From Rhodoferax antarcticus ANT.BR (GTDB lineage Bacteria; Pseudomonadota; Gammaproteobacteria; Burkholderiales; Burkholderiaceae_C), in contig NZ_MSYM01000011.1 in NCBI RefSeq assembly GCF_001938565.1, positions 1 to 64,000 on the forward strand: a DNA stretch of 64,000 nt, given 5' to 3'. The position numbers and the translations under genes are program-made. The number at the start of each line of letters is the position of its first letter. Within the stretch, counting starts at the first letter, position 1. Shown one piece after another: positions 3,401 through 57,460 of the stretch. The notes below the pieces were generated by a model, which worked only from the letters and a program-made list of their open reading frames with translations, ran no database searches and had not been told where the DNA came from.

Positions 3401-3917
3401 TTTGCGGCGGCAGCGCATCCGCTGGCCGGGGGGCGGTGCGGGCCAGTTCGTTGAGCCAGCGCACCACCTGGTTGTCGGCTTCCAACTGCTCGGCGGCTTG
3501 CTGGCGCGCCAGTTCGGCCAGGCGGCGGGCTTCGAGTTGCTCCGGGGTGGCGGGCGTGGTCGGTACGCTGGCGGTGCTGTGCCCCAGCAGGACTTGGCCT
3601 TTGTAGGCGGCCTTGATCAGCAGCGCCACCGCGTGTTTGCACTGGTAGCCCGCCGGGCAGGTGCAGTCGCTGTCCCAGTCCAGTACCTGCCCGTTGATGC
3701 CGCGCTTGAGGTCGACCTCGACCTGGTAGGGCTCACGTTGGCTGCCCTGCACCGCGCCTTCCAGCAGCCAGCGGTTCTGGTCGGGCGTGATCGTCAAGGT
3801 CAGGACTTTTTGACTGCGGTACAGCGCCAGGGCACGTCCGTAGACCGCCGTGCTGGTGCGTTGGGCGAGTGACGTCAGGTCCAGCCAGAGTCCGTGTAGC
3901 GTGTCATTGTTAGGCAT
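438..3917 (-). CDS. SWIM zinc-finger SNF2/DEAD-type helicase
   Basis: This is a 1159-residue Swi2/Snf2-family DNA translocase, probably an ATP-driven remodeller of protein-DNA or nucleic-acid complexes; the substrate is unknown. A SWIM zinc site is visible near the N terminus (C85, C87, C93, H95 in CTCPAGYQCKH). A long middle region follows, then the two RecA-like lobes from about residue 690: Walker A DDMGLGKT near 717, Walker B LDEAQN near 814, and motif VI QATDRAHRIGQ near 1090. The length and the SWIM plus SNF2 order fit the bacterial HepA-like SWIM family. It stands alone on the minus strand; a dispersed repeat copy lies just upstream of its start and another just beyond its end. Confidence 0.9.
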   Translation of the reverse strand: MPNNDTLHGLWLDLTSLAQRTSTAVYGRALALYRSQKVLTLTITPDQNRWLLEGAVQGSQREPYQVEVDLKRGINGQVLDWDSDCTCPAGYQCKHAVALLIKAAYKGQVLLGHSTASVPTTPATPEQLEARRLAELARQQAAEQLEADNQVVRWLNELARTAPRPADALPPQSAPSRPGTAAARPEQFLYLLSILNPQGPNPQLSLEVVTSYPKVTGGWAKAKQLKHQPERGQPLFDLASEADHDVLQLIRAMPGSSIQYYYSYSARSKITPEGKYGVQILEKAASTGRLFVLTPPSQPGTPVEWGPPLALQWEWHEVSASINAKSGWALRAKLGDDQAKICLNNPTLYLDAVNGRCGLVDVQGMSSGQIAVLLKTPPLKSEALKNHQPDLIAHLGAVPLPPVLEPLPTLKGITPKACLLLQAVPPERMPDDGLMLMRLSFDYNGHRGWWVGQGTTVLVEGPSGRAMLQRDPQTELEAIVRLRDWGFASSGRDVFGVPGDASQHIWLQLADTDYASLREAGFEVTLDDTLVNWISHASALNVNLQAQGDDEATSPWFDLSLGMEINGQRHNILPLLPSLISTAAMSPRDAVTGLPDLPPFVYLPNPQGGFIRLPTDNLKPWLGALLELVGDRDHDFSGESLNLSRLDAMRTTAALGEGAVWEGAQHLREMVQKLKCNTELPEVPLPASVHATLRPYQQQGVNWLQFLREYGLAGILADDMGLGKTLQTLAHIQIEKDAGRLTAPALIIAPVSLMGNWRREAERFCPDLRCLVIHGADRHEVSGSTHAHDIVIAPYSLLPRDREGWLQGQWHLVVLDEAQNIKNANTFAAEVASELKARHRLCLSGTPMENHLGEIWSLFHFLMPGFLGSQKRFTELFRKPIEKQGDPEALQQLRARVTPFMLRRTKALVANELPPKIETVMRVELTGKQADLYETIRLGMEKTVREALSTKGLAKSQITILDALLKLRQVCCDPHLLKLDAAKKVKTSAKLEQLMALLPEMLSEGRRILLFSQFTSMLTLIEAELAKRKLTWVKLTGQSQKRDDLIEQFTSGKVPLFLISLKAGGVGLNLPQADTVIHYDPWWNPAVQAQATDRAHRIGQTQSVWVVKLVAQGTIEERILALQERKAALAESMYSGSVGRKQPLFTESDLAELLKPLST

Positions 3918-3923
3918 GAAATT

Positions 3924-3968
3924 GGCCTCTAGCCCTTGTATTTATTGCGCTAGTAGCTATTAATATAT
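3924..3968 (+). repeat. Dispersed repeat, copy 2
   Basis: GGCCTCTAGCCCTTGTATTT followed by GCGCTAGTAGCTATTAATA. It fills the gap between the stop of lipA (3975) and the start of the SNF2 helicase (3917), so any read-through or promoter signal for the helicase must lie in or beside the repeat. Confidence 0.8.
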
Positions 3969-5046: not shown

Positions 5047-5835
5047 TCAGTGGCCCAGGTAAATCACCAGCTTGTCAGCCAGCACCTCGGCGGCCTCTTG
5101 CCACGCAGCAAAAACGCCAATTGTAGAAAGATCAACGGTTTGCAGCGCCTGGTAGCCGCAGGGGTTGATGCGCGAGTAGGGCTCCAGGTCCATCGCCACA
5201 TTCAGCGCCACGCCGTGGTATGTGCAGTTGCGGCTGACCTTGATGCCCAAAGCGGCGATTTTGCCCAGACCGGTGAAGTCGGGGCTGACCTTCTGATGGC
5301 GAACTGACGGCGTATCGGTGCAGGAATTGGGGTCAGATCCGGCCGCGTAGCGGAACGGCTCTGACCCCAATTGCGCAGCTTTGACGATTTTTTGCGGCCG
5401 CTGCGCCAGCAGCGCGTGTGAGCGCGGGACGTCCAGCCGCACATAAATCCCCGGCGCACCCGCCACCCGGTGCCCGGTGATGTCGAAGTGCAGCAGCGTG
5501 CGAATGACGGCTTCTTCAATCCGGTAAACATATTCCTTGATGAAATAACCCGCGCGTTTCAAATCCATCAGCGGGTAGGCCACCACTTGCCCCGGCCCGT
5601 GGTAAGTCACCTGGCCGCCCCGGTTGGTTTGCACCACCGGGATGTTGCCGGGGTTGAAAATATGTTCAGCCTTGCCCGCCAGACCTTGTGTGTAGACCGG
5701 GTCATGCTCGCAAATCCATAGCTTATCACGCACATCCTGTAAGGGCTGCAGGCCTCTTTGGCTTGTAAATTCCTGCATGGCTGCATAAGTGGACTGGTAG
5801 TCCACGCGGCCAAGAAACAGGGTGTCGATGGTCAT
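5047..5835 (-). CDS. lipB: Octanoyltransferase LipB with an in-frame repeat insertion
   Basis: Transfers octanoyl from acyl carrier protein to lipoyl domains, feeding LipA. I place the start at 5835 (MTIDTLFLG) because AGGAAG lies 9 nt upstream; an upstream ATG at 5865 lacks such a site. The conserved [10 protein letters not shown] stretch and the NPCGY cysteine motif are intact. The protein is 262 residues, against roughly 215-235 for the family. The excess lies between [15 protein letters not shown] and GLGKIAALG, and its core (about residues 155-171) is encoded by a palindromic repeat at 5325-5372. The frame is kept open, so the gene is probably functional with a surface loop extension. 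Confidence 0.93.
5325..5372. repeat. REP-like palindrome inside lipB
   Basis: Arms aattggggtcagatcc (5325-5340) and ggctctgaccccaatt (5357-5372) are inverted with one mismatch. The loop contains a second small hairpin, CCGC-GTA-GCGG (5343-5353). The ggggtcag/ctgacccc arms resemble palindromes associated with REP-type tyrosine transposases. The element is translated as part of LipB. Confidence 0.85.
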
Positions 5836-5962: not shown

Positions 5963-8707
5963 TCACCATGCTACATGGATTCCGTGCGGATCATGAAGTC
6001 TGAGGTTAAGCAAGGCGTTGATCTGCCCGGTCATGCCCATGCCGCCCCGGTCTTTGGTGATGTAGCCAAACAAACAGCGGCCCTGGCTGTTGCGCGCCCA
6101 CAGCTCGCCCACCTGGCGTTTTTCAATCTCATACGGGTCGTTGAGCAAATGTGCGCCCTTGTACTCCAGCACCGCAATGCGCCCTGAGTTGACCCCGTCG
6201 CCCGCCAGTTCCGCCACAAAGTCCGGAAAAAAGCGCCCACGTGACGTGGCCAGCGCAAAGCCGCAAGGCGCGGTGTCAAGGTTGCGCACCCAGTGCATGA
6301 CGGCGGGGTGGGCATCAAGCAACTGGGCGCAGGCAAACTCTTCGCCGCCGTCTTTCAAATCGGCCAGCACCGGGTAAAAGTGCTTGTTGAACTGGTAGCG
6401 CCCGCTGTAGCGTGAGAGCGCCGGGGCCGGGTAGCGGTTGGCCACAAACAGCAGCGGCTGCACCCAGTCGGGCTCAATCGTCCAGGTTTCCTGCAGCACC
6501 AGTTGGCGAAACTGCGCCTTGGCCGCGCGGTCTTTCAGGTCGGCTACGCGGGCCTCAATGTCTTGCGCCAGTTTGAAGCGGGCCTTGGCCAGCGCCACCA
6601 GCGAGAGGCCTTTTTCATGCAGCAGGTGGTTGACGACGGCTGCGAAATAGGCGCGGCGCTGGCTCTGGGTGAAGTCAGGCAGCTTTTGAAACAGCGACTG
6701 ATCGAGCCAGCGCACCAGGTCATCGGCGCTGATGCTGCTGGAGCCGTAATCCAGTGCAATCTGGCTGGCATCAGCCGCGCGCAGCTGGACGTGCGCGTCT
6801 TTCAGGTAAATCTCGAAACTGTTGGACTGCTCGACAATATGAAAGTCCGGCAACTGCACCGCATCGGGCGTGAGCAAATCCAGCGTCACGGTTTCCAGCA
6901 CGGCCTCAACCTCCAGCGGCCAGAGCTGACCTTGCGCCGTGCTGCGGTAGCCCAGCGTCGGAACCGGCGCAAAGTGCGCGCCGCGTGAGGCCGGGGCAGC
7001 TTGCGCGGCCACCAGCGCATTGTGCTGCGCCACCTTGTCTTTTACCTGCGCCTGCTTTTTGGCACCGCGCACCTGCGCCATCAGCAGCGCTTCAACCTTG
7101 GTGCCAATGTGCCCGGTGACCACCACGCGTTGCTCGCCCGCCAGCTGCACCACCGCAATGCCCGGCGCATTGTGCAGCGCTGCAGGCACTGAATTTGCTG
7201 CAAAATCAGTAGCTACTGGCGCATATTCAATAAGGGCTGTAGGCTGATTTTTATCAAAAACTGGCAACAAGGACTGCTGCACCAGCATGCTTGCCACGTC
7301 CAGCGCCTCAAAGCCCATGTGGTTGATCAATCGGTCGGCCAGCGCGCTGGCGGCGGTTGAAAACTTGGCCTCGCAAACATGCGCATAAGCCCGGTTCAGC
7401 GCCTCGCGCCCGCGTCGGCTGGCATACGGCATGCGCAGCACGCGCCCCAGCAACTGCTCTACTGCTGTCGCGCTGGAGAGCTTTTGCAGCGAGCACAGCA
7501 CGTAGGCAAACGGGCAGTCCCAGCCCTCGCGCAGCGCCTGCACGGTGATGACAAAGCGCACCGGGCAATCGCGCGCGGCCAGGTTCAGGCCGTCCAGCTC
7601 CTTGGTGTCGCCGGTGGCTATTTTGATCTGCTCTTTGGGGATGTGCAGCTCGTCGTGCAGGTGCTGGCGCAAGGCGGCGGGCGGTACGTCGTCGTTCTCG
7701 TTTTGCGCCTGAAACAGCACGATGGGGCGAACATAGCCGAAGCCCTCAGCTTCGTCTTTGAGTGCCTCGCCCTCTAGCGCACGCTGGGTTTGCACGGCGG
7801 CAAACACCGCCTGCTGCCAGCCCAGCGGGTGCTCGGCCAGCGCAATCGGCAGCTTGATCATGGCTTCAGCGGCCAGCTCTTGCGCGCTGACGTGGTACAG
7901 CACGTTGGTTTGGGTCGCAATCGGTGTGGCGGTCAGCTCCAGAATGGCGCTCGGGTTGAGGCGCTTGAGGGCGGTAAAGCTCTTGTCGGTTTTGGTGTTG
8001 TGCGCCTCATCCACGATCAACAGTGGCTCATGCAGCGCCAGCCAGTTGGCCAGGCTCCAGCGCGGCTGGCCAACAAAACCTTTCAAAATACCGGCACGCA
8101 CGCCAGCGCCATCGGCGGCGGCTTCTTCCGCCGTGACCATGGCATCGGGCAAATCATGCAAAACCCGCAGACGCTGCGCGTCGCAGCCTTTGAAATGCCG
8201 CTCAAAGTGCTCCGAGAAGCTGTACACGTTGCGCTTGTCGGTGTCGTCAATGCGAAAGCTCTGAATCGTGGCCACCACCACAATGGCGCGCTGGCCCCAG
8301 TCGCTGGGGGCAATGTTGGCCAGGTCTTCCAGCACGCACACCCTTACTTCCGCGCCATAGCTGGCCTGTAGCGCGTCGCGGTACGGGTGGCCGGTGGTTT
8401 GTAGCGCGTTGAGCGTCTGGCTGCGAATCGTGTCGCTGGGCACCAGCCATACCGCCACGGGTGCGTCGCTGGCCCGCCACTCGCGCGCCAGCGTGGCTAC
8501 CGCATGCGCTGCCAGCAGCGTCTTGCCCCCACCAGTGGGAATGCGCAGGCACACGCACGGCACGGCACCAAACGGGTCGGGGTTGTAGGGCCGCCCGACC
8601 AGCTCACCAAACGCCAGCGCCGGGCCTTTGACTTGGGCGGCGCGGGCAAAACCGGCCAGCGCGTCAAGGGCAGCTTGTTGGTAGGACTTGAGGGCGAGGG
8701 TGGTCAT
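5963..8707 (-). CDS. res: Type III restriction enzyme, Res subunit
   Basis: DEAD/DEAH-helicase nuclease that cuts DNA after ATP-driven communication between unmodified sites, working with Mod. The protein is 914 residues. The helicase core has Walker A GGGKTLLAAH near residue 57 and Walker B VDEAHNTKT near 228. A C-terminal PD-(D/E)xK pattern is visible (PDF near 828, then LEYKG near 845), the usual type III nuclease site. Part of the dispersed repeat is translated in the middle (about residues 485-502). It is the last gene of the mod-(broken gene)-res unit. The helicase and nuclease motifs are intact, so it may be active. Confidence 0.9.
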   Translation of the reverse strand: MTTLALKSYQQAALDALAGFARAAQVKGPALAFGELVGRPYNPDPFGAVPCVCLRIPTGGGKTLLAAHAVATLAREWRASDAPVAVWLVPSDTIRSQTLNALQTTGHPYRDALQASYGAEVRVCVLEDLANIAPSDWGQRAIVVVATIQSFRIDDTDKRNVYSFSEHFERHFKGCDAQRLRVLHDLPDAMVTAEEAAADGAGVRAGILKGFVGQPRWSLANWLALHEPLLIVDEAHNTKTDKSFTALKRLNPSAILELTATPIATQTNVLYHVSAQELAAEAMIKLPIALAEHPLGWQQAVFAAVQTQRALEGEALKDEAEGFGYVRPIVLFQAQNENDDVPPAALRQHLHDELHIPKEQIKIATGDTKELDGLNLAARDCPVRFVITVQALREGWDCPFAYVLCSLQKLSSATAVEQLLGRVLRMPYASRRGREALNRAYAHVCEAKFSTAASALADRLINHMGFEALDVASMLVQQSLLPVFDKNQPTALIEYAPVATDFAANSVPAALHNAPGIAVVQLAGEQRVVVTGHIGTKVEALLMAQVRGAKKQAQVKDKVAQHNALVAAQAAPASRGAHFAPVPTLGYRSTAQGQLWPLEVEAVLETVTLDLLTPDAVQLPDFHIVEQSNSFEIYLKDAHVQLRAADASQIALDYGSSSISADDLVRWLDQSLFQKLPDFTQSQRRAYFAAVVNHLLHEKGLSLVALAKARFKLAQDIEARVADLKDRAAKAQFRQLVLQETWTIEPDWVQPLLFVANRYPAPALSRYSGRYQFNKHFYPVLADLKDGGEEFACAQLLDAHPAVMHWVRNLDTAPCGFALATSRGRFFPDFVAELAGDGVNSGRIAVLEYKGAHLLNDPYEIEKRQVGELWARNSQGRCLFGYITKDRGGMGMTGQINALLNLRLHDPHGIHVAW
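7202..7252 (-). repeat. Dispersed repeat, copy 3 (inside res)
   Basis: On the minus strand this reads CAGCCTACAGCCCTTATTG, then GCGCCAGTAGCTACTGA. It lies wholly within res and keeps the reading frame, encoding part of a stretch of about 17 residues around KNQPTALIEYAPVATDF. Confidence 0.75.
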
Positions 8708-10315: not shown

Positions 10316-12129
10316 CTTGCCCGCACGTCATAAGGAATGTGCTTGAACGTCACGTTCGCCAGCGCCAACCGGGCGGGGCCCAGGCGGCAGGCTTCGCCGT
10401 ACACCAGCAGAGGCGCGGCAGGCGATGGCGTGCTGGCGTGCAGGTCCAGTAGCGCGTCGAGCACATCGCGCGTCAGCACATTGCCGCTGGCCGGGCGCTT
10501 GTCGCCCAAAATGCCGTTGAACAGCAGGTAGTGCGCCACGTCCGTTGGCTGTGGGGCACCGGTGCTGCCCGGCCCTTCGTGGGCCGGTTGGGGTGAGGGT
10601 TGCGTTGCGCCATCTGAGTCGCTGCCGTTTAATGCCGAAATAGGCCCTGAGCCCTTGTCTGATATGCGCAAGTAGCTATCAACTATGGAGTGAGTGCCAA
10701 GGTAAGGCGTGCCTTGTCTGGCATCACAGGGCGCAGGTGACGCGGGGTAGCCTGTCCAAGTGTGGCCAGTTTCCTGTTGCCAGATGAAGGCGGCCAGCGT
10801 GGCAAAGCGCACATCGGGGTGAATGCGGCCCTGCGCGTCAAACACCGGCGCCCCGAGCTGCATGAAGCGAAAGCCGCCGCCTTGCCAGGGTACGGGTGCC
10901 TCAAACAATTCGCCCGAGCCGTTGGCGGCTTTGACATGGGCGGCGTTTTGGCCCCAGCCAACGGCCTTGCTGATGCCGCCTTGCTCGCCGTCAATGACTT
11001 TTTGCAAGCGGGGCAGGCAGTGCGTGGCGGCGTGTTCGCCCATTTCGATGCCAATCCAGCGCCGCCCCATTTTGTGCGCGACGGCGGCAGTGGTGCCGGA
11101 GCCGAGGAAGCTGTCTAGGACGAGGTCGCGTGGGTTGGTGGCGATGTGGAGGATGCGCTGGATTAGGCGTTCTGGCTTTGGTGTCGCGAAAAGCTCCGAA
11201 TCAAGGCTGCCTCGCAGCGCAAGCATCTCTGCTTTTGCTTCTTGGTTATGCCCAACCTCGGACGAAAGCCAAATGGTCGTGGGAACAACCCCATCGAGCT
11301 GCTCCGATAGAAAGCGCTTGAGTCGTGGTTGATTGTTACCGTCTTTGCCCCACCAGATTTTTTCCTCTGATTCCATGCCTGCCAGAGTTTCTTCTGAATA
11401 TGCCCAAGCTCTACCGGCTGGCGGGTACACCTTAGCGCCACCCGGGCTAAGCATTGGAAACAAGCCAGTTGATGTCCCGCTTCGCGCATATTGCGCACCT
11501 CGTTGCCCCGAGGTCAGGCTGACATGCAATGGGCTGGAAGACCAACTTCCTCGATGATCGTTGTCAGGGTTTGAATAATCATTGGCATTTCTCTCGCTCC
11601 GTGGAATCCTGTTGAATAAAAAGTGATCGCGGTTTTTAGCGTGAACGTGGAGTTGATCGCTTGCGGAAGAGAAAAATTCTGCGTTGTTATGCACGCTGGT
11701 TGTTTTTTGCCACGTAGCAGTCGCCACAAAATTCCCCCGCCCAAACACCTCGTCCATCAGCACCTTGAGGTAGTGCCCCTCGTTGTCATCAATCGTCACC
11801 CAGATTGAGCCGTCTTCGCGCAGCAGCTCGCGCAACAGTTGCAGGCGCGGCAGCATCATGCTCAGCCACTGGGCGTGCTCCAGGTTGTCGTCGTAGTGCT
11901 CGAAGGCGCTTTGGGTGTTGTACGGTGGGTCGATAAAAATGCACTTCACCTGGCCACGGTAAAACGGCAGCAGCGCCTTCAAGGCTTCCAGGTTGTCGCC
12001 CTGAATCAGCAGGTTGTCGGTGGTGCCAGGGCCGTTGCCATAAGTGGCCACGGCGTCCAGCAGCCGGTAGGGCACATTGGCAGCCGTGGTGAAAGCGGCG
12101 CTGCGGTTAAGCCAGTCGAGCGTGGGCAT
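10312..12129 (-). CDS. mod: Type III DNA methyltransferase, Mod subunit
   Basis: Adenine methyltransferase that also provides DNA recognition for Res. I choose ATG 12129 (MPTLDWLNRS); a longer frame to 12204 would run into ybeD and has no family-like sequence. Motif order is that of beta-class enzymes: DPPYNT near residue 65, then the SAM-binding DSFLGSGTTAAV near 339. The intervening target-recognition region (roughly 11200-11750) is visibly more A+T rich than the rest, as expected for an exchanged specificity domain. Near the C terminus about 14 residues are encoded by a dispersed repeat copy. The gene overlaps the next one by the GTGA junction. Confidence 0.9.
   Translation of the reverse strand: MPTLDWLNRSAAFTTAANVPYRLLDAVATYGNGPGTTDNLLIQGDNLEALKALLPFYRGQVKCIFIDPPYNTQSAFEHYDDNLEHAQWLSMMLPRLQLLRELLREDGSIWVTIDDNEGHYLKVLMDEVFGRGNFVATATWQKTTSVHNNAEFFSSASDQLHVHAKNRDHFLFNRIPRSERNANDYSNPDNDHRGSWSSSPLHVSLTSGQRGAQYARSGTSTGLFPMLSPGGAKVYPPAGRAWAYSEETLAGMESEEKIWWGKDGNNQPRLKRFLSEQLDGVVPTTIWLSSEVGHNQEAKAEMLALRGSLDSELFATPKPERLIQRILHIATNPRDLVLDSFLGSGTTAAVAHKMGRRWIGIEMGEHAATHCLPRLQKVIDGEQGGISKAVGWGQNAAHVKAANGSGELFEAPVPWQGGGFRFMQLGAPVFDAQGRIHPDVRFATLAAFIWQQETGHTWTGYPASPAPCDARQGTPYLGTHSIVDSYLRISDKGSGPISALNGSDSDGATQPSPQPAHEGPGSTGAPQPTDVAHYLLFNGILGDKRPASGNVLTRDVLDALLDLHASTPSPAAPLLVYGEACRLGPARLALANVTFKHIPYDVRAR
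10643..10682 (+). repeat. Dispersed repeat, copy 4 (inside mod)
   Basis: GGCCCTGAGCCCTTGTCTG followed by GCGCAAGTAGCTATCAAC. It lies within mod, read on the opposite strand, and keeps the frame (encoding part of IVDSYLRISDKGSGPIS). Confidence 0.75.
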
Positions 12130-22088: not shown

Positions 22089-22538
22089 ATGTCCAAAGCA
22101 CCTCAAAAGCCGCCCTCCTTGGGCGGTTGCGTCGATGAAACACACGCCAATTTTTACGAAGCGTTGCAAACCGGCGATATCGAACGCCTGATGGCCTGCT
22201 GGGCGGATGAGGACGAAGTGATTTGCGTCCATCCAGGCAGCCCGCGGCTGGTGGGCCTGGGCGCCATCCGTGCGGCGTTTGACGCGGTCTTCAGCAGGGG
22301 CGGCGTGCGCGTTCAGGCGCAGGCCCTGCGGAAAATTGAGTCCATGACCAGCGCCGTGCACAGCGTGCGCGAACGCATTGACATCCTCACCGACGAAGGT
22401 TCAGTTGATGCGTATGCCATTGCAACCAACGTGTATTTCAAGACGGCGCAGGGCTGGCGCATGGTGGCACACCATGTCAGCGCGGGTGGTGCCAGCGAAG
22501 CTGATGACATTTCAGAGACTCCGCATGTTTTACACTAA
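22089..22538 (+). CDS. NTF2/SnoaL-like protein
   Basis: 149 residues of the nuclear-transport-factor-2 fold: ANFYEALQTGDIERLMACWADEDEVICVHPG at the start of the domain (shown in part) and GWRMVAHHVSAG near the end. Relatives are ketosteroid isomerase-like proteins of unknown substrate. The start at ATG 22089 (MSKAPQK) fits the family N terminus. A dispersed repeat lies between its stop and the next gene. Confidence 0.8.
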   Translation: MSKAPQKPPSLGGCVDETHANFYEALQTGDIERLMACWADEDEVICVHPGSPRLVGLGAIRAAFDAVFSRGGVRVQAQALRKIESMTSAVHSVRERIDILTDEGSVDAYAIATNVYFKTAQGWRMVAHHVSAGGASEADDISETPHVLH

Positions 22539-22541
22539 ATT

Positions 22542-22580
22542 GGCCTCTAGCCCAAATAGATAAAGCGTCAGCAGCTATGA
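22542..22580 (+). repeat. Dispersed repeat, copy 5
   Basis: GGCCTCTAGCCCAAATAG followed by AAAGCGTCAGCAGCTATGAA. The final ATGAA of the repeat supplies the start codon of the next gene (22577). Confidence 0.8.
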
Positions 22581-23563
22581 ACTACGTAGCGCCTTGGTGG
22601 TTGCCGGGCGGGCAATTGCAGACCATCTGGCCAGCCGTTCACGCCCGTCGCCAGCGCGCGGCATTGGGCGCTACGCCGCTGCCTTACCAACGCGAGCGCT
22701 GGCCAACCCCGGATGGCGATTTCATTGACCTAGATTGGCTGTACGCGCCGCAGGCGGGCACGTTACTGGTCATGTTTCACGGGCTGGAAGGGTCATCCCA
22801 AAGCCACTACGCACGGGCCTTTGCCGACCATGCCCGCCAGCAAGGCTTGTCCTTCGTGGTGCCGCACTTCCGGGGCTGTAGCGGCGAGATCAACCTGGCC
22901 CCGCGCGCCTACCATTCAGGCGACTACCTGGAAATTGACTGGATCTTGCAAAGTCTGCGCCAACGGCACAGCGGCGCGATATTGGTTGTGGGCGTCTCTC
23001 TGGGCGGCAACGCCTTGCTGCGCTGGGCTGAAGAGGCGGGCAGCCAGGCCTGCCACACCGTGGACGCGGTGGCGAGTATTTCCGCCCCAGTGGATCTGGC
23101 CGCCAGCGGCCAGGCCATCGGCCGTGGGTTGAATCGGCTGGTGTACACACGCATGTTTCTGGCCAGCATGAAACCCAAGGCGCGGCTCAAGCTGGCACAG
23201 CACCCAGGTTTGTTCAGTGCGCAGGCACTGCACGGCGCACGCGATCTTTATGCCTTTGACAATGTGTTCACCGCACCACTGCACGGATTCAAAAACACCG
23301 ACGACTACTGGGCCAGAGCCTCTGCCAAGCCACATCTGGCGAGCATCCGGGTGCCAACCCTGGTAGTGAATGCGCTAAACGACCCGTTTGTGCCGGCGCA
23401 CAGCCTGCCGCACGCCAGCCATGTGGGTCAAAATGTCACGCTGTGGCAGCCCCGCCACGGCGGGCATGTCGGTTTTGCCCAAGGCAGACCCCCCGGCCAC
23501 CTGCGCACCCTGCCCGAGCGAGTGGTGGGCTGGCTGCAAACCCAAGGACCTTCGCATGGATGA
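22577..23563 (+). CDS. YheT-like alpha/beta hydrolase
   Basis: 328 residues of the UPF0017/YheT hydrolase family: MFHGLEGSSQSHYAR, VPHFRGCSGEIN and the nucleophile elbow VGVSLGGNALLRW (serine near residue 143), with a C-terminal histidine in RHGGHVGF. Substrate unknown; esterase-type activity is expected. The start codon falls in the tail of a dispersed repeat. Its stop overlaps the next gene (ATGGATGA). Confidence 0.9.
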   Translation: MNYVAPWWLPGGQLQTIWPAVHARRQRAALGATPLPYQRERWPTPDGDFIDLDWLYAPQAGTLLVMFHGLEGSSQSHYARAFADHARQQGLSFVVPHFRGCSGEINLAPRAYHSGDYLEIDWILQSLRQRHSGAILVVGVSLGGNALLRWAEEAGSQACHTVDAVASISAPVDLAASGQAIGRGLNRLVYTRMFLASMKPKARLKLAQHPGLFSAQALHGARDLYAFDNVFTAPLHGFKNTDDYWARASAKPHLASIRVPTLVVNALNDPFVPAHSLPHASHVGQNVTLWQPRHGGHVGFAQGRPPGHLRTLPERVVGWLQTQGPSHG

Positions 23564-24095
23564 CATCGTCAAGCAAGCCATGGCCAAATGGCCCAACGTG
23601 CCCGATTGCTATGGCTGGCTGGGGTTGGACAACCGTGGCAACTGGTACATGCGCGACGACCGCGCCCAGACCTTGGGGGCGTTCGACAGCGGCCAGCCCG
23701 GTGCCAAAGGCTCGCTGCTGCAGCACGACAAGCTGATTGACTTCATTGGCCGCAACTACAGCGCAGATGTGCTGGGGCGCTGGTTTTTTCAGAACGGGCC
23801 GCAGCGTGTGTATGTAGAACTGCAAGCCGCACCGTTGGTCTGGCGTGTGCAGGCAGACCACTCGGTCAAAGACCACATCGGTCGCAGCGCGCAGATACAA
23901 AGCTGCTGGCTCGATGAATTGGGTCACCTATTTTTGGCGGCCGACACCGGCTTAGGGTTGGTGCACACTCAGGACATGTCGCTTGCAGCGGATGCGGTTG
24001 TGCAGGGCCTGTGGCTGCCCCAAGACGTGTCTAGCCAGGATTTGCCGGGAGAATTTGGTTTTGTTAAAAGCCCTTATTTACTACAACTAAAATAG
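23556..24095 (+). CDS. DUF2946-like protein
   Basis: 179 residues, start ATG 23556 overlapping the hydrolase stop. Begins MDDIVKQAMAKWPNVPDCYGWL and resembles proteins annotated as DUF2946 in Comamonadaceae; function unknown. No signal peptide or membrane segment. Coupled translation with the hydrolase suggests joint use. The last codons run into a stretch related to the dispersed repeat. Confidence 0.75.
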   Translation: MDDIVKQAMAKWPNVPDCYGWLGLDNRGNWYMRDDRAQTLGAFDSGQPGAKGSLLQHDKLIDFIGRNYSADVLGRWFFQNGPQRVYVELQAAPLVWRVQADHSVKDHIGRSAQIQSCWLDELGHLFLAADTGLGLVHTQDMSLAADAVVQGLWLPQDVSSQDLPGEFGFVKSPYLLQLK

Positions 24096-24129
24096 CTACT
24101 AGCGCTTTAGCCATAAGGGCTAGAGGCAT
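24089..24129 (-). repeat. Dispersed repeat, copy 6
   Basis: On the minus strand: GCCTCTAGCCCTTATGG, then AAAGCGCTAGTAGCTATTT. It overlaps the stop of the DUF2946-like gene and is one of the best matches to the consensus. Confidence 0.85.
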
Positions 24130-24254
24130 AAAAGACCATTAGTCTACAAGCCATTAAAGCGGTCAAACACAACACTGGTATAGCAAGAGCGAGCTCTGGT
24201 TGATCTGGCAGCCAACCGTCACTATTGATCGACGCCTTCGGCTGCGCACAAGGT

Positions 24255-57329: not shown

Positions 57330-57420
57330 GATCGCCCTTGCTGGGGCATTCAAAGCGGTGTTGGTGCTCTTTTGTCTGGTGTGCCATGCGCCAGAGCCGT
57401 TGTCACAAAGCTATAGAAAA

Positions 57421-57460
57421 TATAGCTGCTAGCGCTTTATTGACAAGGGCTAGAGGCATA
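57421..57460 (-). repeat. Dispersed repeat, copy 9
   Basis: On the minus strand: GCCTCTAGCCCTTGTCAAT, then AAAGCGCTAGCAGCTATA. It stands between the end of fdx and the nifV regulatory region. Next to it is a TTTTGTATACAAAA palindrome (57461-57474). Confidence 0.85.

Follow-up and report, generated by a model that had tools for sequence, protein, structure and literature searches.

A loop of LipB as a probable site of recurrent entry and remodelling of repeats in Rhodoferax

In the genus Rhodoferax, repeated DNA appears to have entered and reshaped one loop of the lipoyl(octanoyl) transferase LipB, an enzyme of an essential pathway, time and again. The case that draws attention to this loop is a 48-bp palindrome of the REP type translated within lipB of Rhodoferax antarcticus ANT.BR, in a stretch of 64,000 nucleotides (contig NZ_MSYM01000011.1, positions 1 to 64,000; the window in what follows). 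The original prediction saw in it a mobile repeat accepted as a protein loop. This reading holds, but it is too small: a REP has indeed been accepted as a loop, yet the two orientations of the element, two other inserts that are repeated in their genomes and the proline-rich inserts speak for more than one event. We consider it probable that a REP-type palindrome entered a disordered loop of LipB, was translated and later remodelled, and that other repeats used the same loop. The 79 related loops compared here form a natural series of repeat entry into an essential-pathway enzyme, with insertion, turning, decay, deletion and replacement. With such a series one can test by what steps a REP turns into protein sequence, whether template switching at hairpins has a part in shaping the proteins of bacteria, and what makes a single loop the target so often.

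The palindrome and its host gene

The gene lipB occupies 5050..5835 of the window on the minus strand and, if translation begins at the ATG at 5835, encodes 262 residues. The protein passes the LipB models TIGR00214, with 174.6 bits (cut-off 83.55), and PRK14342, with 237.6 (cut-off 235), and matches the Pfam family PF21948 with 93.8 (cut-off 27); its scores for PRK14343, PRK14341 and PRK14345 are below the cut-offs. The NCBIfam matches are split in two stretches, the best of which ends at residue 133-138. An expanded loop, residues 133-190 (5266..5439, minus strand), lies between the strand ...GIYV and the strand starting at GKIAALG, and it holds the element plus about 40 further residues. 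Directly after the loop comes K192 (codon 5260..5262, minus strand), which is invariant in 48 LipB sequences together with C226 of INPCGY (5158..5160, minus strand) and with R72-G74 and H79-Q83 of the RGG..HGPGQ motif. We take K192 to be the catalytic lysine and C226 the catalytic cysteine.

The palindrome, AATTGGGGTCAGA-22 nt-TCTGACCCCAATT, is found at 5325..5372 (no strand assigned). It has perfect arms of 13 bp and encodes residues 155-171 from the minus strand, here called orientation A. The palindrome has one exact match in the window, none in 100 dinucleotide shuffles and a chance expectation of 0.00, and it stands in frame in the minus-strand ORF, which bears out the claim that it lies in lipB without breaking the frame. 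It also forms the stem-loop of a REP: the RNA hairpin computed for this region has -36.7 kcal/mol (z -4.09), and 0 of 200 shuffles were as low. Between 4900 and 6000, no promoter-like sites were found, and there is a single terminator-like site (5743-5755), fewer than the 1.5 that shuffled sequence gave on average. A scan of viral contigs with 26 bases of the element had no match.

The protein was also said to be longer than its family just at the palindrome, and it is. Counted from GIY to the K of KIAALG, the loop of the window LipB has 60 residues, compared with 26 in 51 of the 102 resolved LipBs of the family; in structure 1w66, from M. tuberculosis, it has about 5. The family loops come from 108 loci, the better-matching part of 188 genomes outside the genus with a LipB match; six of the 108 were left out. 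Among 169 LipB loci, the loops of L047, L055 and L087 were read by eye, and L090-L094 and the fragments L108-L110 did not enter. An AlphaFold2 model built with the 48 LipBs has a mean pLDDT of 87, and its best fold match is again 1w66. The core is confident, with pLDDT falling below 50 at residues 151-156, 158-168 and 170-174, so the residues encoded by the REP sit in a low-pLDDT loop. The structural modelling proposed along with the original prediction thus returned a disordered loop. LipB with the insert would still be functional, and the loop would be neutral for the protein. A pseudogene was considered and set aside in view of the open frame and the preserved motifs, and an assembly artefact in view of the similar inserts in many genomes.

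The arm repeat, the transposase and the copies elsewhere

In the window's own genome, the 40-bp core unit of the element (5329..5368, plus strand; up to 3 mismatches allowed) has one full copy, in lipB, rather than the many copies of a typical REP. Further copies of the palindrome had been named as a touchstone for its mobility; as a whole it stands alone in this genome, although its arm recurs. The arm TTGGGGTCAGA occurs at 11 exact places, 9 of them outside the palindrome, compared with 2 for the reversed control. The REP-associated transposase that was to be looked for is there as well. Three Y1_Tnp matches were found in this genome. One of them, on contig C1, scores 80.8 bits (cut-off 80) for NF047646, the model of REP-associated tyrosine transposases (RAYT). 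A match to this C1-type RAYT at 1e-20 or better is present in 77 of the 89 genus genomes (the one in G215 only 42% identical), and it does not single out the carriers of the element: 17 of 18 carriers have it (not G251), as do 60 of the 71 others.

What connects the transposase with the palindrome is the sequence next to it. Among 17 Y1_Tnp loci read, 8 are of the C1 type (7 by match, G061 by neighbourhood) and 9 of other types. AATTGGGGTCAGA adjoins 7 of the 8 C1-type loci, on both sides and inverted in 4 of them; the eighth (L244) is cut by the contig end. In the window's genome, the repeat next to the RAYT is AATTGGGGTCAGATTCCAATT, on one side only, with the 13-bp arm in common and a different core. 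In sequence, then, the lipB palindrome shares its arm with the end repeat beside the resident transposase and differs from it in the core. A single end repeat of this kind is also seen in five other LipB loops of the family (L023, L041, L266, L277 and L025), where it is read as QLESDP or NNGGQIP.

With the 40-bp unit as pattern (up to 3 mismatches), 43 places were found in 18 of the 89 Rhodoferax genomes and none with the reversed control; since the pattern was derived from the window core, elements with a different core escape it, and repeats may be missing from drafts. All 18 carriers have one copy inside their own lipB match, as established by comparing coordinates, at the same place and in either orientation (7 A, 11 B). 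No other copy was found in 14 of them, and the carriers with extra copies are G248 (21), G210 (4), G270 (2) and G209 (2). A search of 399 genomes of the family found the element in 5, namely the window's genome (G000), G202 and three genomes of one sister genus, in lipB every time. Taken together, 21 of 21 carriers have a lipB copy, and in 17 this is the only one found. The same stretch in LipB of many unrelated species would have spoken against a mobile repeat; besides the window's genome, 20 have it in LipB, and these belong without exception to the same or a sister genus. On both checks, for other species and for further copies, the palindrome thus comes out in between, neither plainly refuted as a mobile repeat nor plainly safe from refutation. 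It should be pointed out that no donor copy was found in 17 of the 21 carrier genomes, a search limited by drafts and by the core-specific pattern, and this counts against our preferred explanation.

Dispersed copies number 25, and some of those in G248 match the pattern with 0 mismatches. In the dispersed copies, the pairing of the flanks ends sharply 8 bp outside the 40-mer. The motif GTAG adjoins the stem in 15 of the 18 that were read (L184-L198; not L202, L218 and L223), and 17 of the 18, judged from open frames, lie outside conserved genes. The remaining one, in G209, is in frame in icmF, with 1143 bits for NF045497, below the whole-protein cut-off of 1500; the locus (L202, 1-2355) covers part of the model. 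This copy, a second one in frame besides that in lipB, is read as LGSDPAAQRNGSDPN inside the fused isobutyryl-CoA mutase IcmF. At the window copy, the flank CGGTGCAGG adjoining the arm (5316..5324, plus strand) resembles, by reading, the CGGTAGCAG (GTAG) side of the dispersed copies with one base gained and one lost; the tag is thus read in degenerate form alone, as CGGTGCAG (CGGTGCAGGAATT vs CGGTAGCAGAATT). That a mobile repeat was accepted as a protein loop is upheld by the identity of the arm with the RAYT-side repeat, by the GTAG tags of the dispersed G248 copies and by the place of residues 155-171 in the loop of low pLDDT.

Occupants of the loop and their history

A LipB match was found in 77 genomes of the genus, and 75 loops were resolved after leaving out G243 (unresolved) and G240 (a 58-residue fragment). 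They were assigned to classes from their alignment scores, from flanks in common and by reading. The element or a remnant of it is held by 30 of these loops, 12 in orientation A and 18 in orientation B. Ten hold other inserts, of which 7 are of a VIPGLTRDP type, 1 is of a TTCGAC type and 2 are proline-rich (judged by reading only), and 35 are without a recognised repeat. When the four loops of the sister genus are added, 35 of 79 loops score higher for the element than any of 100 shuffles of the loop in question. The scores are weak in G121 and G249; G233, which barely exceeds its shuffles, was placed among the loops with no recognised repeat. Some other inserts can be repeats in their own right. 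The TTCGAC repeat TTCGACARGCTCAGGGCGAACGG was counted in three genomes that have it in lipB, with 99 copies in G254, 152 in G130 and 54 in G164, and in seven other genomes, with 0-3. The CCCGGG repeat CCCGGGCTTGACCCGGGATCC of the VIPGLTRDP inserts, counted in carriers other than G227 and G276, has 21, 31 and 22 copies in G269, G267 and G215, all with one in lipB, and 3 in G271; in G220 the lipB copy stands alone, and 13 copies occur in G202, whose lipB lacks this repeat. A variation on the palindrome itself is seen in the LipB loop of the MAG Rhodoferax sp. GL140_3 (L102, 1501-2253), which has the same ends, another core (AATTGGGGTCAGAACCCAATTATC..GATAATTGGGTTCTGACCCCAATT) and another reading frame.

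The history of the loop was followed on a tree of the two ends of lipB with the loop excluded (576 columns), based on lipB itself and not a species tree. Over six states, the loops require at least 28 changes; the number is 17 when loops are scored only for having or lacking the element, and 10 when carriers are scored for orientation. The tree is weakly resolved, with 27 of 76 inner branches starred and the bootstrap not settled; if only starred branches are trusted, the minimum is 4 label changes for A, 7 for B, 8 for none and 4 for VIPGLTRDP. Relatives with and without the element exist, and their loops are too different for a clean empty site.

Two features of the lipB copies bear on how the orientations arose. 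A G at position 7 is present in 16 of 21 lipB copies (7 A, 9 B) but in only one of the 25 dispersed copies (Fisher p 3e-7, uncorrected for relatedness); because A and B have this base in common, the two orientations in lipB are suggested to share an origin. The outer arms vary between species yet match within each. In 24 lipB copies with up to 6 mismatches, out of 34 classed, pairing of the 8 bp on the outer side of the 40-mer was seen in 150 of 192 cells, where shuffling gave a mean of 108 and a maximum of 130 in 20,000 (relatedness uncorrected). Covariation of the outer arms and a marker base in both orientations are what template switching at a hairpin would give. A further hint comes from G246 (B) and G251 (A), which have a common duplicated left flank before opposite cores. 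An extra arm in G251 makes this turn something other than a pure inversion, and a new unit joined to a remnant may also fit.

Our preferred explanation would run as follows. A non-autonomous REP-type palindrome, with ends matching the RAYT-side repeats, would have entered the disordered loop before the strand of the catalytic lysine, presumably moved there by the transposase. With no stop in frame in either orientation, it could be translated as a tolerated loop, a 14-residue peptide or, when turned, GSDPAAQRNGSDPN. Template switching at the hairpin would then have re-matched the arms to each other and turned the core, which we infer in place of a second insertion; partial deletions would have left the remnants, and other repeat families would have taken the same loop in other species. 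One could go further and see in the loop a long-term refuge of the REP. In-frame residence in an essential gene would protect the element from deletion after the dispersed copies are lost, and hairpin replication would renew and turn it, leaving LipB to alternate between two loop peptides, and from there it could re-seed a genome as in G248. We regard this extension as speculative and unlikely.

A further result counts against our main explanation, in that copies of the element from different species resemble each other more closely than they should after simple descent. At third codon positions, identity inside the element is 0.89 (A) and 0.93 (B), compared with 0.56 in the rest of lipB, and it is not lower inside the element in any of 132 pairs (66/66 for A, 66/66 for B), although only copies with up to 6 mismatches entered the comparison, which inflates identity. 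This excess could stem from young or renewed copies, from exchange between species or from selection at the DNA level. If segments of lipB had been exchanged between species, most copies would come from a few lipB-resident elements instead of new transposition, and the dispersed REPs of G248 may themselves stem from lipB. The identity above that of the rest of the gene, the marker base in 16 of 21 lipB but 1 of 25 dispersed copies and the 17 of 21 genomes with a lipB copy alone are all in keeping with such exchange, but the flanks of the loop vary widely among species, and we find it quite unlikely as the main account.

Selection at the DNA level brings up a different possibility, that the hairpin is kept in lipB for a function of the nucleic acid, such as ribosome pausing or transcript protection in the mRNA or a protein site on the DNA, with the peptide as a by-product. 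The strength of the hairpin, its covarying arms and the high third-position identity would suit this. Covarying arms are expected from template switching too, and the marker G in orientation A gives an A-C mismatch in the mRNA; moreover, 35 of the 75 genus loops are without a recognised repeat and 7 have an unrelated one. We consider a kept function very unlikely. Slightly less probable still is that no mobile element was involved and that slippage and template switching built palindromes from local sequence in a loop of low constraint, the REP likeness being convergence: the arms do extend into sequence that differs per species, and the right arm ends in sequence similar to the native codons CCCAATTT, but G248 has 20 more copies of the same 40 bp and G209 has one in icmF, a repeat identical to the arm adjoins a transposase gene, and other loops hold repeats with tens to more than 100 genomic copies.

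Related systems and other repeats

Several parts of the proposed entry and remodelling of a REP have counterparts in known systems. The accessible text of Di Nocera et al. 2013 (PMC3733652) describes GTAG/CGTC-tagged REPs inside genes and TIRYT elements, and the likeness to our case is threefold: small palindromes are translated in housekeeping genes; the REP-type transposases are flanked by inverted repeats with the motif GGGGWSAS, which GGGGTCAG fits; and the pairing of the flanks ends beside GTAG, as in our dispersed copies. That text also reports different REPs at about the same recB site in X. campestris and X. oryzae. The LipB case is unlike these in that one site of one gene holds several unrelated repeats, in many species and in both orientations, and that the lipB copy is usually the sole one found in its genome. 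The words "Lipoyl", "Rhodoferax" and "Polaromonas" are absent from the main text of PMC3733652. Rickettsia palindromic elements (RPEs), named in the accessible text of PMC3733652 and PMC2635572, are palindromic as well and lengthen proteins by a peptide, but they belong to another lineage and to many genes; they are likened here by description. Template switching at inverted repeats of yeast genes (PMC8604942, in its accessible text) is reported to leave the same two marks, arms made alike and an inverted spacer, but these repeats are not a mobile REP. The coding palindromes of Nematomorpha mitochondria (PMC6649704, likewise) are also kept inside translated genes; both of their arms encode conserved protein regions, unlike the disposable loop of LipB. 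Intragenic REPs, RPEs and coding palindromes are thus known already, and what is new is one loop of an essential-pathway enzyme reused by unrelated repeats, with the gene copy usually the sole one found in the genome. We found no report on LipB palindromes or on repeated insertion at one such site in a search that had most subscription journals outside its reach and is no proof of absence.

The window and its genome hold a number of other repeats. On contig C12 of the same genome, a gene for a 2175-residue double UvrA, named by reading (L330, 1070-7594, minus strand), also has repeats with this type of arm in its translated frame. They include LGSDPDLGHQANGKPKSSSKSGSDPNS, which a long hairpin (6807-6883) encodes, and KFGSDVKF...KKLDSDPNF, around 2190. 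Four single arm repeats are found within 2.5 kb on contig C15 (L331, 1536-4033, minus strand), two of which are followed by sequence resembling the dispersed AGCCCTTG...GCGCTAGTAGCTAT repeat of the window. In the window, a dispersed repeat that is not like the lipB palindrome occurs at 3908-3963, 10627-10682, 22526-22581, 24089-24130 and 57419-57460, in families D1 and D3, related by inversion (I1 and I2). Near 1509 of contig C7 (L004, minus strand), a related palindrome, TTGGGGTCAGAGCACATTTGATTCGCAAAGTGGTCTGACCC, stands between two ORFs that, by reading, resemble pyruvate dehydrogenase subunits. Finally, a second gene of the Y1_Tnp type, on contig C17 (L044), is surrounded by seven copies of a different repeat, which is GGGGTCAGGCTCGA(A/T)TTA-like.
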